From: a virus
IMG/VR virus record: IMGVR_UViG_3300030117_001860
Location: 1-35,193 of that record
Length of the DNA: 35,193 nucleotides
Reading direction: 5' to 3' (one strand)
Shown here: positions 1-35,192 of the stretch, piece after piece
Numbering within the stretch: the first letter of the stretch is position 1
How the letters are laid out: the number at the start of each line of letters is the position of its first letter
Notes under the pieces: generated by a model
What the model saw: only the letters and a program-made list of their open reading frames with translations
Database searches by the model: none
Told to the model about the DNA's origin: nothing
Made by a program: the position numbers and the translations under genes

Positions 1-83
1 GCTGATTATCCTTTTATGGTGGACTTCCAGCAATTCACCTTGTTTCATTATGTTGTTGCCAACATAAGCCCCAACTACGCTTT
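1..83 (-). other. Group I intron, 5' part (P1, P2, P4, P5), cut by the window edge
   Basis: Read on the minus strand, the capsid reading frame runs to ATC CCT at position 84 and then meets stops, while the RNA folds like the start of a group I intron. P1: exon CCCU plus intron AA (87..82) pairs with UUGGGG (74..69), giving the typical U-G wobble at the splice site. P2: an 8-bp perfect stem (67..60 with 55..48) closed by a GCAA tetraloop. P4/P5: GCUG (31..28) with CAGC (4..1), joining GAA, GUCC (24..21) with GGAU (11..8), joining AA. This is the conserved P/Q core order. P6 to P9 and any homing endonuclease would lie beyond position 1. The splice position is inferred from P1 and from loss of the reading frame. 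Confidence 0.82.
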
Positions 84-245
84 AGGGATTTTTACAAAGT
101 CACCGCCCCTTTGTGCGGATAAATTTAATTCTGCCAAAGGTTGCACTACCCCACTCTGTAAGAAGCTATCTGTCTGAGTAGTAGCCTCAATTAAGTAGGG
201 GGTGAACACCTCTGGTATAATCAAGTCACTGCGAACTGTCGCCAT
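84..245 (-). CDS. Major capsid (coat) protein, exon 1, N-terminal 54 codons
   Basis: The ATG at 245 opens a frame beginning MATVRSDLIIPEVF and ending GGDFVKIP. This resembles the N-terminus of phage coat proteins of the HK97-like type that follow a scaffold gene. It forms the icosahedral capsid shell. The open frame stops four codons past the inferred splice site, where the group I intron fold begins. In coat proteins of this kind the KIP segment is normally followed by more shell-domain sequence, which is absent here. The C-terminal 220 residues of what looks like the same gene lie at the opposite window edge (34530-35192), as expected for a circularly permuted genome. The family is recognised by eye; the joining of the two parts is inferred. 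Confidence 0.75.
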
Positions 246-313: not shown

Positions 314-985
314 CTAACCGCTAACTGCGTTTTTGAGCATATTATATTTATTTATGTCTGTACGATATAACCTTGCTTGCTCGGTTAAATTAAAAGAATC
401 TTTTGCAAATGGATTATTTTCACCGCTAGTTACAAACTCTGTTTGCACTTTAGTTGTCGTTGCTCCACCGCCTTGTGGTCTTGGGTTCTTCTGTACCCAT
501 GAGGGCATTTTTGTCATTGCCCAATCTTTTACAGGTGTTCTGTTATAACCATCAACAACAACAACTGTTCCATCAGCCTCTCTTGCAAGTTGATCCTTAC
601 TAATGCGAGATAACACATATTGTGGATCGTGTACAACATCAGCAAGTGCTGTTACTGCTGGGGCTTCAACTTCAAGCTGTCTCTGTCTAGCTTCTAGCTC
701 TTGGATTCTTTTGTTCTTTGCCTCTTCAGCATCACGATACTGCTGTGCTTGTTTAGCAATCGCCTCATCATATCTACCCTTTGCCTCTAGCTCTTCTTTT
801 TCTTTCTGTTGTTTGAAAGCAATCAAAGCATCTACATCAACATCTGGTGGTACAGCTTTTGCCGCCTCCTTAGCTTTTTTGTAGTCATCTAAAATTTCTC
901 TGTTGCTTTTCCTGAGTGCTTCAACTTCTGCCATCAACGCTGTTGTGTCTACAGGTGGATTTGGTTTGATTGGTTCGTCAGCCAT
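314..985 (-). CDS. Scaffold-like head assembly protein
   Basis: A 223-aa, highly charged protein with a long central region (about residues 18-105) rich in Glu, Lys, Ala and Gln that should form coiled coil. It lies directly upstream of the major capsid gene, the usual place of a scaffolding protein, which organises coat subunits into the procapsid and is then lost. The C-terminal part has a conserved-looking segment (VKDWAMTKMPSWVQKNPR, about 152-169) and a tail ending in a helix (about 199-220), where scaffolds usually bind the coat protein. No protease motif was seen in it or nearby. The role comes from position and composition, not from a recognised catalytic or binding motif. Confidence 0.7.
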   Translation of the reverse strand: MADEPIKPNPPVDTTALMAEVEALRKSNREILDDYKKAKEAAKAVPPDVDVDALIAFKQQKEKEELEAKGRYDEAIAKQAQQYRDAEEAKNKRIQELEARQRQLEVEAPAVTALADVVHDPQYVLSRISKDQLAREADGTVVVVDGYNRTPVKDWAMTKMPSWVQKNPRPQGGGATTTKVQTEFVTSGENNPFAKDSFNLTEQARLYRTDINKYNMLKNAVSG

Positions 986-2211: not shown

Positions 2212-3495
2212 CTATAGTTTATATTCTTTTTTGATTTGGTCTAATGTTTTTTCTGTTCCATCGCTTCTAATAATCTGTCTTAATGCCTTTTGACCAGAAC
2301 TTCCTTTTTTACTTGCTAATGTTTTAAAAAATCTTACTCTCTGTTCATTGCCAAGAGTTTTTATCTGTAGTTCTTTTTTTTGGTTCAATAACCAATCACC
2401 ATAAGCCTGCCCCTGCGGAACTCGACCTGTCATGCTTGGCCTTGTATCAAGCTTAGTTACTGGTGGATCTTGTAGGTTCTTAAATGGTTTTACCTTTTTA
2501 CCATTTACTGTATATTCCGTATTTCTCAAGCCTTCAAAATCAACAACAGGAACAGTAGTTGATCGACAATTAAAGTGCTGAGGTGGTGTCGGCCCTTTGT
2601 TGTATTCAAATATCTGACCATCTAACCTCTGACAGATTGGTGTGGTTTTTGAATCCAATGTCGCAACATATTCATATTTAGGAGCAACTTTGCTATTTGC
2701 AGCATAAACAGCCTGTGATGCTTGATTCTGCACTTGATTCACAGAAGTTCTTACAATCGTCTGGATTTGATGATTTGCAAGTTTTGTAAGTTCTCCACCC
2801 GATGCTGCAAGCTGTTTGACAGATAGTGGCCCAAAATCTGCAAAATTCAACTGACCAACTAATCGTCTTGCAATCTGTTGTGATGTCTCTCCACTAAATA
2901 CACCTGATCTGATTGCCAATGCAAGTTTTTCCTGTGAACTGGCAGCGATACCTCTAAATGCTTTATTGACAGTTTCTCCATTAGGCAATGTTATTGCTGA
3001 TCCTTGAGTTGCAGTAAGTTCAAACTTACCAGCACCAAATCTTTTGAAAGCATCTTCCTTGAACTGTTCAGTTGTAAATATGTTTACCTGTGTTGGGTCT
3101 GTCATTATCACAGATTCTGCATATTTTGGACTTATTGCAACGCTATTGATCGGCACATCTCCTGATGCTGTCACCTTTTTCAGTTCATTAACGATAAAAT
3201 CTCTTTGTAAAAGAATTATCCCCTGTAATTCTTTCTTGAAATCTCTTGCCGTAGCACCAGACCATGTATTAAGGCTGTCTTTTGCCTGTTTTATTATCGC
3301 TCTTAGTCTTTTTCTTGTTTCAGGTGCAATAATTGCAGCCTCGCCAGCCCTTCTCTGCCTGAAATCAATCTCTCTTAGTTTTTTTGCAGCATTTAAAATT
3401 ACCTCGTTGTAAGTAACGGCATATTTTTTTGCAACAGCATTACTGAAACGGTTGAGATCAATAGTCTCTCTAAAAAATACCTCTGGAATTGACAT
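2212..3495 (-). CDS. Minor head protein, Mu gpF / SPP1 gp7 family
   Basis: 427 aa. The C-terminal half (about residues 235-320) holds the MuF-type domain: a helix with RTSVNQVQNQASQAVY, the segment YVATLDSKTTPICQRLDGQ, and the PPQHFNCRSTTVPV ending with its conserved His, Asn, Cys and Arg. Proteins of this family bind the portal or the packaged DNA and are incorporated into the procapsid. The N-terminal part is helical with no other recognised domain, and the basic C-terminal extension (after about 330) is not assigned. The gene lies right after the portal gene, which is the standard location. Start at ATG 3495, three bases after the portal stop. Confidence 0.9.
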   Translation of the reverse strand: MSIPEVFFRETIDLNRFSNAVAKKYAVTYNEVILNAAKKLREIDFRQRRAGEAAIIAPETRKRLRAIIKQAKDSLNTWSGATARDFKKELQGIILLQRDFIVNELKKVTASGDVPINSVAISPKYAESVIMTDPTQVNIFTTEQFKEDAFKRFGAGKFELTATQGSAITLPNGETVNKAFRGIAASSQEKLALAIRSGVFSGETSQQIARRLVGQLNFADFGPLSVKQLAASGGELTKLANHQIQTIVRTSVNQVQNQASQAVYAANSKVAPKYEYVATLDSKTTPICQRLDGQIFEYNKGPTPPQHFNCRSTTVPVVDFEGLRNTEYTVNGKKVKPFKNLQDPPVTKLDTRPSMTGRVPQGQAYGDWLLNQKKELQIKTLGNEQRVRFFKTLASKKGSSGQKALRQIIRSDGTEKTLDQIKKEYKL

Positions 3496-3498
3496 TCA

Positions 3499-4893
3499 TT
3501 AAGCTGCGTCAGGTTCTGTTGGGGCTTCCATTTCGATCAACCCACCAGATTGCGTTGCCTCGACTTCTTCTTCCACATCAAAGTCATCACCAAGAATTTC
3601 ACCACTGCTAAGTTGTGTAAGTAATGTTTCCTGACTGATAGTACCAGCAGTGAATAATGCAAGTAATGATTGGATCTCCTGTGGTTCTAATCTTGCAGTC
3701 ACAAAATCTCTATTAACAAAAGAACTCCCAGCGTTAGGTTCATTAAGATATTCACTATGAAACTTAAGACAATTATCAATCAAGTCTTGCATCTGTTGGG
3801 CTATTACCATCATGGTGCTGTCATTCTGTGATCTATCTATTCTCTTGGCCTCTGCTGATTCTCCTACTAACTTCTGCCCAAGAACCGCAGCTAATGACAA
3901 AGTATTAATTTGTTCTTTGAGATCACCAAGCCTTTGAAATTGGCTTGCGTAACTGTCACTAGATGGGCTGATATATTCCATGCGTGACTCAGGTGGTAAA
4001 GCTAAAGCCTCACTTGGGCCAGTAGTTATTTCATCTGCGTTTGGATAACCAAAGACTGCAAGTAAAGGTACAGAACTGACATGTAAAATATTATCCAAGT
4101 CTGATTGAATTTGATAATGCTTAAGATTTAATTCTGCTATGTCATACAAAGGGCTTCGGCTTTCGTAATATCCAACTCGGTTTGAATAAGCAACAGCAAA
4201 AGGAATCTTATCCTTTATGCTCATCTCTCCTTCATCATGTAATTTATATTCACCTTTTTTATCTTTTCTATGTATCTCAAACCGCCCAGGTTCTAATACT
4301 CTGATCTGCTTTACAATCTTCTCTCCATACTTACCATCAGGTTCGACAACCTGTTCCATTAATCGTAATTGAGTAAGCTGCCTTACACCATCAATAACTT
4401 CTGTTCTCCATCCCAAAATATTTTTTGGCTCATATGTCACCCAATATGGTCTGACTTTTTCTCCATCTCTTGGAGCATCTACAAGCACACCGCAGTGTCC
4501 GAGTGAAATCGCTATTCTTGCCGTATTGTATAACCAGACATTTAGATCATTTTGCTCTAAGTCCACATCGAAAAGCTGCTCCCTCACTAAATCAGAGACA
4601 CCATCAAGACGAACAGGTTTTCGCACTAACATTCCAGCTAACATCTTCTCGATTCTCTGCATGAAGGGAACTACATTGCTTCTGCTAAGCCTGCGATCAT
4701 AGCTATCGTCAGTTTCCCTTTCAAGTTGTGGAAGGTATTTTCTATGCTCACTCCTTACTTTATAAGTTCCCTCCCTGAGGTCAGTTATGAGATCCCAAAA
4801 CTGTGCCATGCGTTGATAGGCAGCATTAGGGCTTGCAACCGTTGTAGGAGCTAATGTTACAGGCTGATTGTAAATATTTAGTGAGCTATACAC
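3499..4893 (-). CDS. Portal protein (DUF4055-like)
   Basis: 464 aa, close to the normal size of a portal subunit. Portals form the dodecameric ring at one capsid vertex through which DNA enters and leaves and where the tail attaches. Recognisable parts are the N-terminal YRKYLPQLERE-type region, LGHCGVLVDAP (about residues 131-141), WVTYEPKNILGW, and the C-terminal GESAEAKRIDRSQNDSTM segment that matches DUF4055 portals. The end is acidic (DDFDVEEEVEA), as in many portals. It lies between the large terminase and the MuF-like gene, which agrees with the assignment. Confidence 0.88.
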   Translation of the reverse strand: MYSSLNIYNQPVTLAPTTVASPNAAYQRMAQFWDLITDLREGTYKVRSEHRKYLPQLERETDDSYDRRLSRSNVVPFMQRIEKMLAGMLVRKPVRLDGVSDLVREQLFDVDLEQNDLNVWLYNTARIAISLGHCGVLVDAPRDGEKVRPYWVTYEPKNILGWRTEVIDGVRQLTQLRLMEQVVEPDGKYGEKIVKQIRVLEPGRFEIHRKDKKGEYKLHDEGEMSIKDKIPFAVAYSNRVGYYESRSPLYDIAELNLKHYQIQSDLDNILHVSSVPLLAVFGYPNADEITTGPSEALALPPESRMEYISPSSDSYASQFQRLGDLKEQINTLSLAAVLGQKLVGESAEAKRIDRSQNDSTMMVIAQQMQDLIDNCLKFHSEYLNEPNAGSSFVNRDFVTARLEPQEIQSLLALFTAGTISQETLLTQLSSGEILGDDFDVEEEVEATQSGGLIEMEAPTEPDAA

Positions 4894-4919
4894 GGTTTTT
4901 CCTCATAGTACCATTACTT

Positions 4920-6266
4920 TTAATATATTCTAATACCAGTTGGCTTGCCTGCCCTACCATAAAGCAAATTAAATTCACGATAAATTAAATACCCCAAGGC
5001 ATCATTCATATGGTCATATCCATTCTGTTTATCTGGATCTCCTGTCTTTTCATCGTAACTCTGTAACTCAAGGCACGAAATCAAACGAGTGCAACGGGCA
5101 TGAATCGCCAAACGTCTTTCCCCTTTGCCGTTTTGTAATAACGCATTGACGGTTGCAACTCGATCTTTGATAAAGGGGTTGCTCTTGAGAGCCATTGAAC
5201 TGAAGCCGTAACTTTCGAGGATTGCAATGTCTGTCTTTGATGCGTTGATTGTTGAACGTGCTGAACCACTAGCGTCAGGGTAAACTAAAATTCTGTTTGA
5301 AGGATAACGTCTAAGTATCTCTTGTGCCAACGCATCTGTATCTTTTTCTTTTGATATTTCATCAATGATCACCAGCCTGTCACCATCTCTCACACCAATG
5401 ACGGAATTGCAGTTCATCACGTTAAAATCTACCCCTATTAAAAGGGTTTCCATTTTTATGTCAAACGGTATTGTGCTGATGACATGATGCTCCCTGGAGA
5501 ACCTATTATAGACCTGACCGCTAGTTAAATTGACCCATTGGCCAAGGAGATAAGCCTTTATTAACTGCGGTGGATAATTCTCATATAAAGATGGAATAAA
5601 CGAATCTGGAAGATAAGGGTTATCAGCCGTTTTTGCTTGTATCAATGCAGTGTCAGATTTTCTATTTTTTTCAAATGTTTCAAATGCCCAGCCATGACCT
5701 TCTGGAGTTGTTGTTGCATAAAACTGCTGAACATTACCTGACCTTAATCTTGCAAGAGCCATATTCATTGCTTGCTCCGCCTCTTTCTTAGGAATTGTGT
5801 CAGCCTCATCAAATCCGACTGCGCACAAATTATTTCCTCGCAATCTTTGATATGTAAGCATTGTTCTTAACAAAATTGTATGTGTTCCTTCCTTCCAAGA
5901 AAGTTGGTACTCCGGAAGCGGTGATGCTCTAAATGTGTAAGGTATTTGCCATTCGTCTAATAGTTCATTAAATGTACGAATTAAAATGTCTCTTAGCATA
6001 GGTGCTGTTGGTTGAAAAACAGCAGATACATGACCAATATTCAGACAGGCAAGCATTACAGCCTTTGAACATAGAGCATATGTTTTACCAGCACCAAAGC
6101 CACAGACAAGTGCTAGTTTTCTGTGTTCTAAATCATCACAAAATTTTGCTTGATGTGGTAGTAAACCTTGATAAATTTTTTCTATCGTTTCTTGCGTTGT
6201 AGGAAGATTATATGCACCAATCTCATATAAAACTTTTCCAGGTTGAACTGTATCTAAAATGCTCAC
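4920..6266 (-). CDS. Terminase large subunit
   Basis: 448 aa packaging motor that cuts concatemeric DNA and pumps it into the procapsid through the portal. The ATPase domain shows Walker A GFGAGKT (residues 56-62), Walker B AVGFDEAD (149-156) with the catalytic Glu, and the coupling motif ATTTPEG (about 190). The RNase H-like nuclease domain shows GVDFN (about 275), VYPDASG (about 330) and the DHMNDALGY segment (about 426) with the last acidic metal ligands. The start ATG overlaps the stop of the small subunit (ATGA). The protein looks complete. Confidence 0.95.
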   Translation of the reverse strand: MSILDTVQPGKVLYEIGAYNLPTTQETIEKIYQGLLPHQAKFCDDLEHRKLALVCGFGAGKTYALCSKAVMLACLNIGHVSAVFQPTAPMLRDILIRTFNELLDEWQIPYTFRASPLPEYQLSWKEGTHTILLRTMLTYQRLRGNNLCAVGFDEADTIPKKEAEQAMNMALARLRSGNVQQFYATTTPEGHGWAFETFEKNRKSDTALIQAKTADNPYLPDSFIPSLYENYPPQLIKAYLLGQWVNLTSGQVYNRFSREHHVISTIPFDIKMETLLIGVDFNVMNCNSVIGVRDGDRLVIIDEISKEKDTDALAQEILRRYPSNRILVYPDASGSARSTINASKTDIAILESYGFSSMALKSNPFIKDRVATVNALLQNGKGERRLAIHARCTRLISCLELQSYDEKTGDPDKQNGYDHMNDALGYLIYREFNLLYGRAGKPTGIRIY

Positions 6267-12628: not shown

Positions 12629-13240
12629 ATGAAAATCCTTGTAGCCTGTGAATACTCAGGGCAGATCAGAGATAGTTTTGCTCGTTTTGGACATGATGCA
12701 ATAAGTTGTGATTTCTTACCTACAGAAAGACCAGGCAAGCATTATCAGGGAGATGTGAGAGATATTATTAATGATGGATTTGATTTGATGGTGGCGCATC
12801 CAAGCTGTCAGCACCTTGCAGTGTCAGGCAGTAGACACTTTTGGAGAAAGCAGAAAGAACAGAAAGAGGCCCTTGATTTTGTGCGTATGCTTATGGATTG
12901 CAACATACCGAGATGGGCCATTGAAAACCCGATCAGTGTTATAAGCTCTGCAATAAGACCTCCAGATCAGATAATTCAGCCTTGGGAGTTTGGTGACAGT
13001 TTTCAAAAGACCACCTGTTTATGGCTCAAGAACTTACCAAAACTGAAACCGACCAAGATTGTAGATAAGGGTGAATTTTATATTTCTCCTAGTGGCAAGA
13101 AACTTCCTCTTTGGTATTCACAGGCAAAAAGCGGAAAAGTGCGCAGTAAAAGTTTTCCAGGCATCTGTGATGCCATCGGCAGGCAATGGGGAGATGAGAC
13201 AAATCTCCCGATACCTGTTGAGCAACTCAATCTTTTCTAA
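12629..13240 (+). CDS. DNA cytosine methyltransferase-like protein
   Basis: 203 aa, shorter than usual C5-methyltransferases. MKILVACEYSGQIRDSF is the SAM-binding start, VAHPSCQHLAVSG corresponds to the catalytic Pro-Cys loop (PSCQ instead of PPCQ), and RWAIENP is the ENV-like motif. FGDSFQKTTCLWLKNLP is typical for a group of small phage proteins annotated this way. No clear target-recognition domain is visible between the motifs. It may modify phage DNA against host restriction, but activity is uncertain given the compact form. No partner restriction enzyme was seen. Confidence 0.75.
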   Translation: MKILVACEYSGQIRDSFARFGHDAISCDFLPTERPGKHYQGDVRDIINDGFDLMVAHPSCQHLAVSGSRHFWRKQKEQKEALDFVRMLMDCNIPRWAIENPISVISSAIRPPDQIIQPWEFGDSFQKTTCLWLKNLPKLKPTKIVDKGEFYISPSGKKLPLWYSQAKSGKVRSKSFPGICDAIGRQWGDETNLPIPVEQLNLF

Positions 13241-13718: not shown

Positions 13719-14518
13719 CAACAGGATCAATTCAAATTTCAAACGAAAAATATCATTCTGATGATGCGATCTCAGCATCAATGAAAAAAGTAATGGTAAA
13801 GCATGGCCCGAAAGCTTACTGGAACTCTTTTCTAAATCCTGACAGGCCAGAACATAAACCGACAAGTGCAATGCTCTTGGGAACATTGACTCATTGTGCT
13901 GTATTAGAACCTGATGAACTGACAAAAAGATTTGTTGCAGTATCTTCCAGGACAACCAAAAAAGGAAAAGAGGAGGCAAAAGAGGCTGAAGCAAAAGGTC
14001 TTACGGCTGTCACTGAAGCTGATATGGAAAATGCGATCAAGATGAGGGATGCTGTATTCTCAGAACCTCATGCCAAAAAATTACTGAGCTTTGGTATTGC
14101 AGAGAAATCATATTGGTGGGATGACAAATCCACTGGTTTGACTTGTAAGTGCAGGCCAGATTGGCTTAATAAAGATATTATTGTAGATCTTAAAACCAGC
14201 AGATCAGGAGCAAACCCTAGAGACTTTGCAAAGGCTGTTGCTAATTTCACCTATCATCTCCAGGCAAAACATTATCTCAATGGTATTCCATCAGCAAAAA
14301 GATTTATTTTTCTTGTAGTGCAATCTGAATATCCATTTGATGTCGGTTTATGGGAGTTGGATGATGATGCGTTGAAAGAAGGGCAAAAACTTTCTAGAGA
14401 AGCTCTAGATAAGATTGCCGAATGTCGCCTGCTTGATGATTGGCCAAGCTGGTGTCAAACAGGAGTTCAATCTTTATCCTTGCCCCGATGGGCATATTCA
14501 ACCCCAATAGAACAATGA
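13715..14518 (+). CDS. RecE-like PD-(D/E)XK exonuclease (DUF3799 type)
   Basis: 267 aa, the size of the catalytic half of exonuclease VIII-like phage enzymes. Motifs: GTLTH with His60, a Glu at 130 (AEKSYWW), CRPDWL with Asp149, IVDLKTS with Asp158 and Lys160, and HLQAKHYL with Gln183. These form the metal site that degrades one strand of duplex DNA ends to leave 3' single-stranded tails. The next gene encodes a Rad52-type annealing protein, the usual partner, and the two overlap at ATGA. Confidence 0.9.
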   Translation: MTTGSIQISNEKYHSDDAISASMKKVMVKHGPKAYWNSFLNPDRPEHKPTSAMLLGTLTHCAVLEPDELTKRFVAVSSRTTKKGKEEAKEAEAKGLTAVTEADMENAIKMRDAVFSEPHAKKLLSFGIAEKSYWWDDKSTGLTCKCRPDWLNKDIIVDLKTSRSGANPRDFAKAVANFTYHLQAKHYLNGIPSAKRFIFLVVQSEYPFDVGLWELDDDALKEGQKLSREALDKIAECRLLDDWPSWCQTGVQSLSLPRWAYSTPIEQ

Positions 14519-15150
14519 GTTTTAATGAAGAGCAGAAAAAACTGCTGAATCAAAAAATTAACAAAGACAATGTATCCTTCAGAAGTGGTGGAGGTGGTCA
14601 AAAGCTAGCTTATGTTGAAAGCTGGCACGTTATAAAAGAAGCCAACCGTATTTTCGGTTTTGATGGCTGGAGTTCTGAAACATTAGAAACATCTTTAGTT
14701 GCTGAAGATTCCAAGTGTGTTTCTTACATTGCAAAGGTAAGAATTACCGTTGGAAATGTTATTAGAGAGGGAACAGGTGCTGGTCATGGCCGCATGGGTG
14801 GTGTAGGTGATAAGCATGAATCAGCAATCAAAGAGGCAGAGAGTGACGCAAGAAAAAGATGTCTTATGCAGTTTGGAGATTCCTTTGGCCTGTCTTTATA
14901 TGATAAGGGCAAGGCTTGGTCTAAGACTGAGGACAGCAAACAAGCTGCCACCTCCAGTGATAAACCGATTGATAGATCCGACAGTGAAAAGTTCATCAAA
15001 GAATGTGAAGCCTTTATTAATAAACCAGCTAACAAAACCAAGCTGGGGATATTAAAGAAAAACATTTCCAAACGATATGAAACTAAAACTATTAGTGAAG
15101 ATCAAAGAGATGGATTACTGACACTTATTCTAGAGAAGGAGGATTCATGA
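14515..15150 (+). CDS. Rad52/Rad22-type single-strand annealing protein
   Basis: 211 aa from ATG 14515, which overlaps the exonuclease stop; an upstream in-frame ATG (14440) would lie deep inside that gene and is less likely. The first 140 residues match Rad52-type annealing proteins: LAYVESWHVIKEANRIFGFD then GWSSE, the G-rich turn GTGAGHGRMGG, and AIKEAESDARKRCLMQFGDSFG. The C-terminal third is charged, possibly for contact with the host single-strand binding protein. Together with the exonuclease it would repair and concatenate phage DNA and promote genetic exchange. Confidence 0.9.
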   Translation: MSFNEEQKKLLNQKINKDNVSFRSGGGGQKLAYVESWHVIKEANRIFGFDGWSSETLETSLVAEDSKCVSYIAKVRITVGNVIREGTGAGHGRMGGVGDKHESAIKEAESDARKRCLMQFGDSFGLSLYDKGKAWSKTEDSKQAATSSDKPIDRSDSEKFIKECEAFINKPANKTKLGILKKNISKRYETKTISEDQRDGLLTLILEKEDS

Positions 15151-34529: not shown

Positions 34530-35192
34530 TTAATCCTGATTACTCACGTTCGTTGAGCGTACAATCCCTATATTTTTTGTTTCATAGACTTTCGACCAAG
34601 AGCCTACAGTTTCAAGAGTGCTTCTATTGGGGTTTACAGTTGTTACTGCATATTTCAACCCTACAGGGTGATAGATGTAGTGGAGATCCACTGCCATTGC
34701 TTCCTCAAGAGCAAGAATGTCTCTATCTGTTTGTGTTCTGATTGGTGCTTTTTCACCTGTAACAACTGCCCCTTGTTTAAAGAAGAATGTTGAATACTCA
34801 GTTGAAGCTCCAGATCCTGTGGTTGGAATATCGTCACTTACGATTATTCTTAAACCACCAAATGTCTCAACAACATTAGGGCCATCAAAGGCTCTTGTTG
34901 TACTACCACCTGTAGCGTCTGAATCTGGTGCGCCTGTGTTGTCGTAAATACGATCAATCATATTACGCTCTAGCAAATCACCATAAACATTAGAGTGCAT
35001 TGCTATTGCTGTAAGCTTGCCGCCTTGATCTCCAAGCTTTGATTTTGCTCTTGCGATATGACGAGGGCTTAATACTGTAGGAGAATCACCTGATTCACTG
35101 TCGATTGTTAGATCAAATAAAGCTGAACTGCTTGAGTTTGCGTTGATAGATCCAAATGCACCAGTTAAGCAAGAATATAAATCCTTTTGCTT
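34530..35192 (-). CDS. Major capsid (coat) protein, C-terminal 220 residues
   Basis: The frame enters the window at 35192 (KQKDLYSCLTGAFGS) and runs to the stop at 34530. SPRHIARAKSKLGDQGGKLT followed by AIAMHSNVYGDLLERNMIDR is the typical end half of this coat protein type, and the later segments (YSTFFFKQGAVVTGEKAPIR) match too. The first 54 codons lie at the opposite window edge (84-245). About 60-70 residues of the middle are missing if family length is normal. An internal ATG at 35000 is not the true start. Confidence 0.88.
   Translation of the reverse strand, partial: KQKDLYSCLTGAFGSINANSSSSALFDLTIDSESGDSPTVLSPRHIARAKSKLGDQGGKLTAIAMHSNVYGDLLERNMIDRIYDNTGAPDSDATGGSTTRAFDGPNVVETFGGLRIIVSDDIPTTGSGASTEYSTFFFKQGAVVTGEKAPIRTQTDRDILALEEAMAVDLHYIYHPVGLKYAVTTVNPNRSTLETVGSWSKVYETKNIGIVRSTNVSNQD

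Follow-up and report, generated by a model that had tools for sequence, protein, structure and literature searches.

Group I introns are already known from phage capsid genes. In mycobacteriophage LittleE (Cluster J), a capsid intron is spliced in infected cells, as established by RT-PCR and protein sequence, and the same paper cites a capsid intron in Tuc2009 (Pope et al. 2013, PMC3706429). Crass-like phages of the Delta and Zeta groups carry group I introns in their major capsid protein (MCP) genes, one MCP being in five fragments (Yutin et al. 2021, PMC7886860). The intron described here adds one case. It resembles that of LittleE in interrupting the major capsid gene, in following an exon 1 that ends in U and in ending in G, but the LittleE intron is ~820 bp long, contains an endonuclease frame and resides in an unrelated phage, and its group I assignment is given as "most likely," not as certain (PMC3706429). 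The BAKA/Optimus intron is comparable in being endonuclease free, 265 nt long and located in a structural gene, and its splicing was seen by RT-PCR; however, it lies in a tail gene with a single reported site, and the likeness drawn here is one of description (PMC3706429). The crAss-like introns share the MCP gene with ours but belong to gut phages and were recognized by intron-encoded endonuclease domains (PMC7886860). The psbA group I intron of S-PM2 and the free-standing F-CphI, also from a marine cyanophage, provide a model for endonuclease-driven mobility in trans (PMC6083498), whereas psbA is a photosynthesis gene; no such endonuclease was detected here, with an Endo VII search that had no positive control. 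What is less ordinary in our case is that one endonuclease-less intron appears to have spread over several sites in unrelated capsid genes.

We analyzed a 35,193-nt stretch of viral DNA (IMG/VR record IMGVR_UViG_3300030117_001860), referred to as the window. Its first bases almost certainly belong to a group I intron of ~252 nt, of which they form the 5' end. This intron, probably of subgroup IA2, has no endonuclease gene, lies in a cyanosiphovirus major capsid gene and appears to behave as a near-neutral mobile element.

A capsid gene split between the two contig ends

Both ends of the contig lie inside the MCP gene, and it represents a MED4-184-like cyanosiphovirus genome in circularly permuted form; MED4-184 is a phage of Prochlorococcus MED4. 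The relevant features are as follows.

1..83, minus strand: 5' third of the group I intron, with the IGS (GTAG..GGGG), GCAA-loop P2 and the 5' strand of P3, P4 and P5; the contig stops within it (RF00028 positions 1-95 and relatives)
84..93, minus strand: 5' splice region AAAAATCCCT, in which CCCU pairs with intron GGGG as P1, with U.G at the splice point
84..245, minus strand: first 54 codons of the major capsid gene, forming its 5' exon, from the ATG at 245-243 to ..AAAATCCCT (frame, DNA match, PHROG 247)
314..985, minus strand: gene for the head scaffolding protein, next to the capsid gene on its upstream side (PHROG 206; order as in MED4-184)
34530..35192, minus strand: last 220 codons of the capsid gene (KQKDLYSC..), for the C-terminal part of the protein, at the opposite contig end (synteny with MED4-184)

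The minus-strand frame MATVRSDLIIPEVFTPYLIEATTQTDSFLQSGVVQPLAELNLSAQRGGDFVKIP is open up to window position 84, the last base of VKIP, and then reaches a stop after two codons (KA). The DNA match to the MED4-184/MED4-117 capsid gene (84.6%) stops exactly at this break, with query position 162 corresponding to window position 84. The first-pass annotation had thus read the coordinates correctly: the capsid frame breaks after base 84, and 83 nt are left over. In MED4-184, both capsid pieces are in one gene, 213 nt apart, and the order of portal, head morphogenesis, scaffold position, capsid and adaptor is that of the window; the capsid protein of an intact relative belongs to the PHROG 247 major head proteins. 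The window lacks ~169 intron nt and, from the exon that follows, 213 nt (71 codons), ~380 nt in total. It holds 83 of ~252 intron nt, and its own P7, P3' and P9 would lie outside the contig. Elsewhere, in the early region, positions 12629-13240 and 14440-15150 encode a DNA methyltransferase (PHROG 757) and a Rad52/22-family recombination protein.

The fragment and its complete counterparts

The fold proposed earlier for the 83 nt was reproduced: P1 (CCCU/GGGG) with a U.G wobble at the splice point, P2 formed by TTATGTTG and CAACATAA around a GCAA loop, and then P4/P5. Thermodynamic folding by itself is insignificant and not decisive for an intron (z score of -1.4; 20 of 200 shuffled sequences folded equally well). 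In a search of 400 nt, the RF00028 covariance model aligned to the fragment over model positions 1-95 with a score of 28.5 bits (E = 1.8e-5), the match being truncated on the 3' side; this is below the gathering score of 50, at which scans of the whole window gave no match. Of the helices, the window shows P1, P2 and parts of P3-P5 only, and, taken alone, the fold and the model match are suggestive. The proof of an intron comes from relatives, because complete introns that score 77 to 88 bits over the full model occupy the same site; the window fragment is 94 to 98% identical to them.

Eighty IMG/VR loci with the nearest capsid proteins were examined, of which 63 were readable across the site. 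The gene was uninterrupted in 55 of the 63, 7 had 251 to 253 extra nt at the site of the window, and in 1 (L024) the insert lay at another place in the gene; the intron is therefore absent from ~87% of the close relatives that could be read and present in roughly one in eight. The eight complete introns in these relatives scored 76.8 to 88.1 bits over the full RF00028 model (E values from 1e-17 to 5e-21; gathering score, 50), and the P3 and P7 partners that the first-pass annotation had proposed to look for are present in complete same-site copies, together with P6, P8 and P9. Its proposal of a group I intron inside the capsid gene is thereby supported. Excision of the 251 to 253 nt restores the intronless frame with no indel (the gap between exon pieces is 216 nt without and 467 to 469 nt with the intron), and the resulting junction, ATCCCT/TTCTACAAAGC, joins KIP to FYKAN in frame (KIP/FYK). 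In all complete copies listed, the 5' exon ends in U, paired to the G of the IGS, and the intron ends in G, the 3' end being seen in relatives only. Complete copies are 248 to 253 nt long and consist of ribozyme helices throughout. The exact site, the complete core in relatives, the in-frame joining of exons and the absence of room for an ORF can all be read from the sequences.

Ribozyme structure

Among 24 distinct introns, 1,353 of 1,368 helix cells (99%) form standard pairs, a count that uses helices assigned by hand and leaves shared ancestry uncorrected. Two-sided changes occur in eight helices (P2, P3, P5, P6, P7.1, P7.2, P8 and P9.1), for example, CCAG/CTGG to TCAG/CTGA in P6, GAAGC/GCTTC to CTCC/GGAG in P7.1 and CAAGG/CCTTG to TAGGG/CCCTA in P3, while P4, P7 and P9 are invariant. 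Two extra stems, P7.1 and P7.2, with compensatory swaps, stand between P7 and P3'. Two stems at this position are typical of subgroup IA, and it is for this reason that we consider the intron, by eye, to be probably IA2.

These data bear on whether the element is a dead remnant that has lost splicing and left the capsid gene broken. The window does hold part of an intron only, and splicing is predicted from sequence. However, complete copies retain every helix with compensatory changes, and the exons are in frame and conserved, which makes a remnant extremely improbable compared with a functional intron.

Nearly the same intron at other capsid sites

Three pattern scans with different intron pieces, blind to the host gene, and a core-motif scan found copies at four sites.

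Site A: KIP/F of the siphovirus capsid; ~21 contigs, the window and the single-cell assembly L227
Site B: within the Tyr codon of FTPY, also in this siphovirus gene, ~113 nt upstream of site A; 8 contigs (L024, L086, L087, L088, L092, L095, L102 and L224)
Site C: T7-like podovirus capsid, within ..LFLKVFSGE..; L103, L105 and L106, 84 to 88% identical
Site D: another position in a T7-like capsid; L202, 83% identical

The capsid proteins at sites A and B (PHROG 247) and at sites C and D (PHROG 267) matched no common family. At every site, the 5' exon ends in CCU. All 17 complete copies listed for site A follow CCCT, and among other site A copies L096 alone differs (ATTCCT); CCCT was present at this position in just 5 of 57 intronless alleles, a fraction uncorrected for shared ancestry. 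At site B, intronless relatives mostly do have CCCT. The IGS segment before GGG usually complements the local 3' exon (P10): GUAG/CUAC or UAGA/UCUA at site A, AGAU/AUCU at site B (shorter in one copy, L092), ACUUUA/UAAAGU (L103 and L105) or ACUUUG/CAAAGU (L106) at site C and CGGG/CCCG at site D. At sites A, B and D, the match extends over no more than 4 bp and is not always better than that to a foreign exon.

Few members of the T7-like group have the intron (1 of the 80 nearest loci). The closest cultured phages, MED4-117, MED4-184, P-HS2 and the podovirus P-SCSP2, are all without it, and it was not found at high identity in GenBank phages, in which the sole match covering more than 80% was 66% identical and the others, e.g., in crAss-like phages, were partial. 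Near the site C position, at ~1490-1500 of L226 (GU943031.1, reversed), the capsid gene of MedDCM-OCT-S08-C159, which has no CDS annotation, contains an apparent frameshift.

The first-pass annotation had suggested that the intron puts virion production under splicing control, and the interrupted gene is indeed expected to be highly expressed late in infection. We found no evidence for regulation. A regulatory intron that gates capsid production is hard to reconcile with its absence from 55 of the 63 readable close relatives, with its occupation of different sites and with the finding that nothing beyond the ribozyme helices appears to be conserved; we consider it very unlikely and favor a near-neutral mobile element.

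Why the contig stops inside the intron

An assembly error, in which 83 foreign nt were wrongly joined to the capsid exon, could be suspected since the element is located at a contig end, and one 56-kb intron-bearing contig (L288) that also holds a T7-like capsid gene may be chimeric. However, the base-exact same junction occurs in ~20 other contigs, most of them with downstream exons, and in a contig from a single-cell genome (L227). We give a chimera next to no credence, and these junctions refute the assembly-error reading as far as the element itself is concerned. Like the window, the contigs of L082, L090, L107, L016 and L224 start or stop inside the ~250-nt intron, and several alleles co-occur in one sample; 3300030101, for instance, yielded both L025 (site A) and L102 (site B). 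The window probably ends here because a near-identical repeat occurs in several co-occurring phages, and breakage of the assembly at the intron by this shared repeat is likely.

Two of these contigs merit description. IMGVR_UViG_3300037991_000102 (56,384 bp; L084 and L288) holds an intron-bearing siphovirus capsid gene and a T7-like capsid gene ~35 kb apart and is possibly chimeric. L227 (CACGZD010000010.1, AG-426-I04) is an intron-bearing capsid gene of this phage type in a single-cell assembly labeled uncultured alphaproteobacterium; the host may be an unexpected one, or viral DNA may have been carried over.

Proposed splicing and movement between sites

We infer that the intron would remove itself from the late capsid mRNA by two transesterifications: guanosine would attack after CCCU, and the exons would then be ligated at the 3' G, with the UUCUAC exon held by P10. 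The product would be the full-length capsid protein, while translation of the unspliced mRNA would stop after 56 codons. The occurrence of the intron in ~1/8 of close relatives, its conservation above that of the exons and its presence at other CCU-flanked capsid sites are consistent with near neutrality and mobility.

In approximately unbiased (AU) tests, separate clades of site A and site B copies were rejected (p = 4e-4 and 3e-8), while a single clade of site C copies was not (p = 0.2), so that one movement into or out of the T7-like gene would suffice. The intermixing of A and B could also result from recombination between copies. The intermixed copies at two sites, together with the close copies after CCU in T7-like capsid genes, suggest that an endonuclease-less intron has moved repeatedly from one capsid site to another. 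Mean identity was 93.6% for the introns, 85% for the upstream exon and 90, 86 and 84% for successive downstream exon blocks; an intron more identical than its flanks is as expected of mobility with co-conversion or of ribozyme constraint.

The idea of a homing intron with a LAGLIDADG or GIY-YIG gene found no support: the intron contains no endonuclease ORF, 252 nt being too short for any such gene, and searches of records, many of them incomplete, gave no match to GIY-YIG or HNH_3 (12 records) or to HNH or LAGLIDADG_3 (14 records). Endonuclease VII had no match in the searched records but none in the controls either, and no homing endonuclease was matched among the window ORFs that were scanned. 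Two routes of spread may be envisaged, namely, recombination at the DNA level, with co-conversion and an endonuclease provided in trans, and rare reverse splicing of RNA at sites that match the IGS. Co-infection is a plausible route, since the nearest isolates of both phage groups infect Prochlorococcus MED4. In its most specific form, transposition between capsid genes of unrelated phages would occur by RNA reverse splicing at CCU motifs of very abundant late mRNA in co-infected Prochlorococcus, with the P10 match gained later. We regard this as a speculative and rather unlikely scenario; if true, it would explain why close copies are all in capsid genes and at several sites. A review finds no direct evidence that introns take the reverse-splicing route and names those of rDNA as the best circumstantial cases (PMC3984707).

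Capsid genes as intron homes

A scan of IMG/VR with the core motif AATTGCTGGRA..AATCAGCAGCCAAG returned at least 120 stretches. Among the matches listed, 109 upstream exon fragments included major head families PHROG 1328 (15), PHROG 267 (6), PHROG 10 (4), PHROG 617 (4) and PHROG 283 (2), i.e., about 21 to 31 capsid cases, given that head families may be double-counted; noncapsid homes among the matches listed were psbA (13) and DNA polymerase, tape measure and terminase (a few each). IMG/VR favors contigs with hallmark genes, and this sample is an indication, not a census. The capsid gene had been called an unusual home for an intron, a view that we reject, as it is the commonest host gene in the core-motif sample and capsid introns have been published (PMC3706429, PMC7886860).

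Further capsid introns were noted. L132 carries a group I intron at 1704-1914 in a capsid gene of PHROG 1328, the family most often interrupted in the core-motif sample. In L180 (IMGVR_UViG_3300025086_003858), the region encoding a PHROG 1357 capsid protein (3145-4976) is broken by four group I introns, and L189 has an intron at a further position of the same gene.

Introns in capsid genes split a marker by which ocean phages are found and classified, and assemblies may break at the capsid because of them. Two capsid families that are unrelated to each other, and whose closest cultured kin grow on Prochlorococcus MED4, contain nearly the same intron at several sites, which constitutes a natural test case for how endonuclease-less introns reach new sites.
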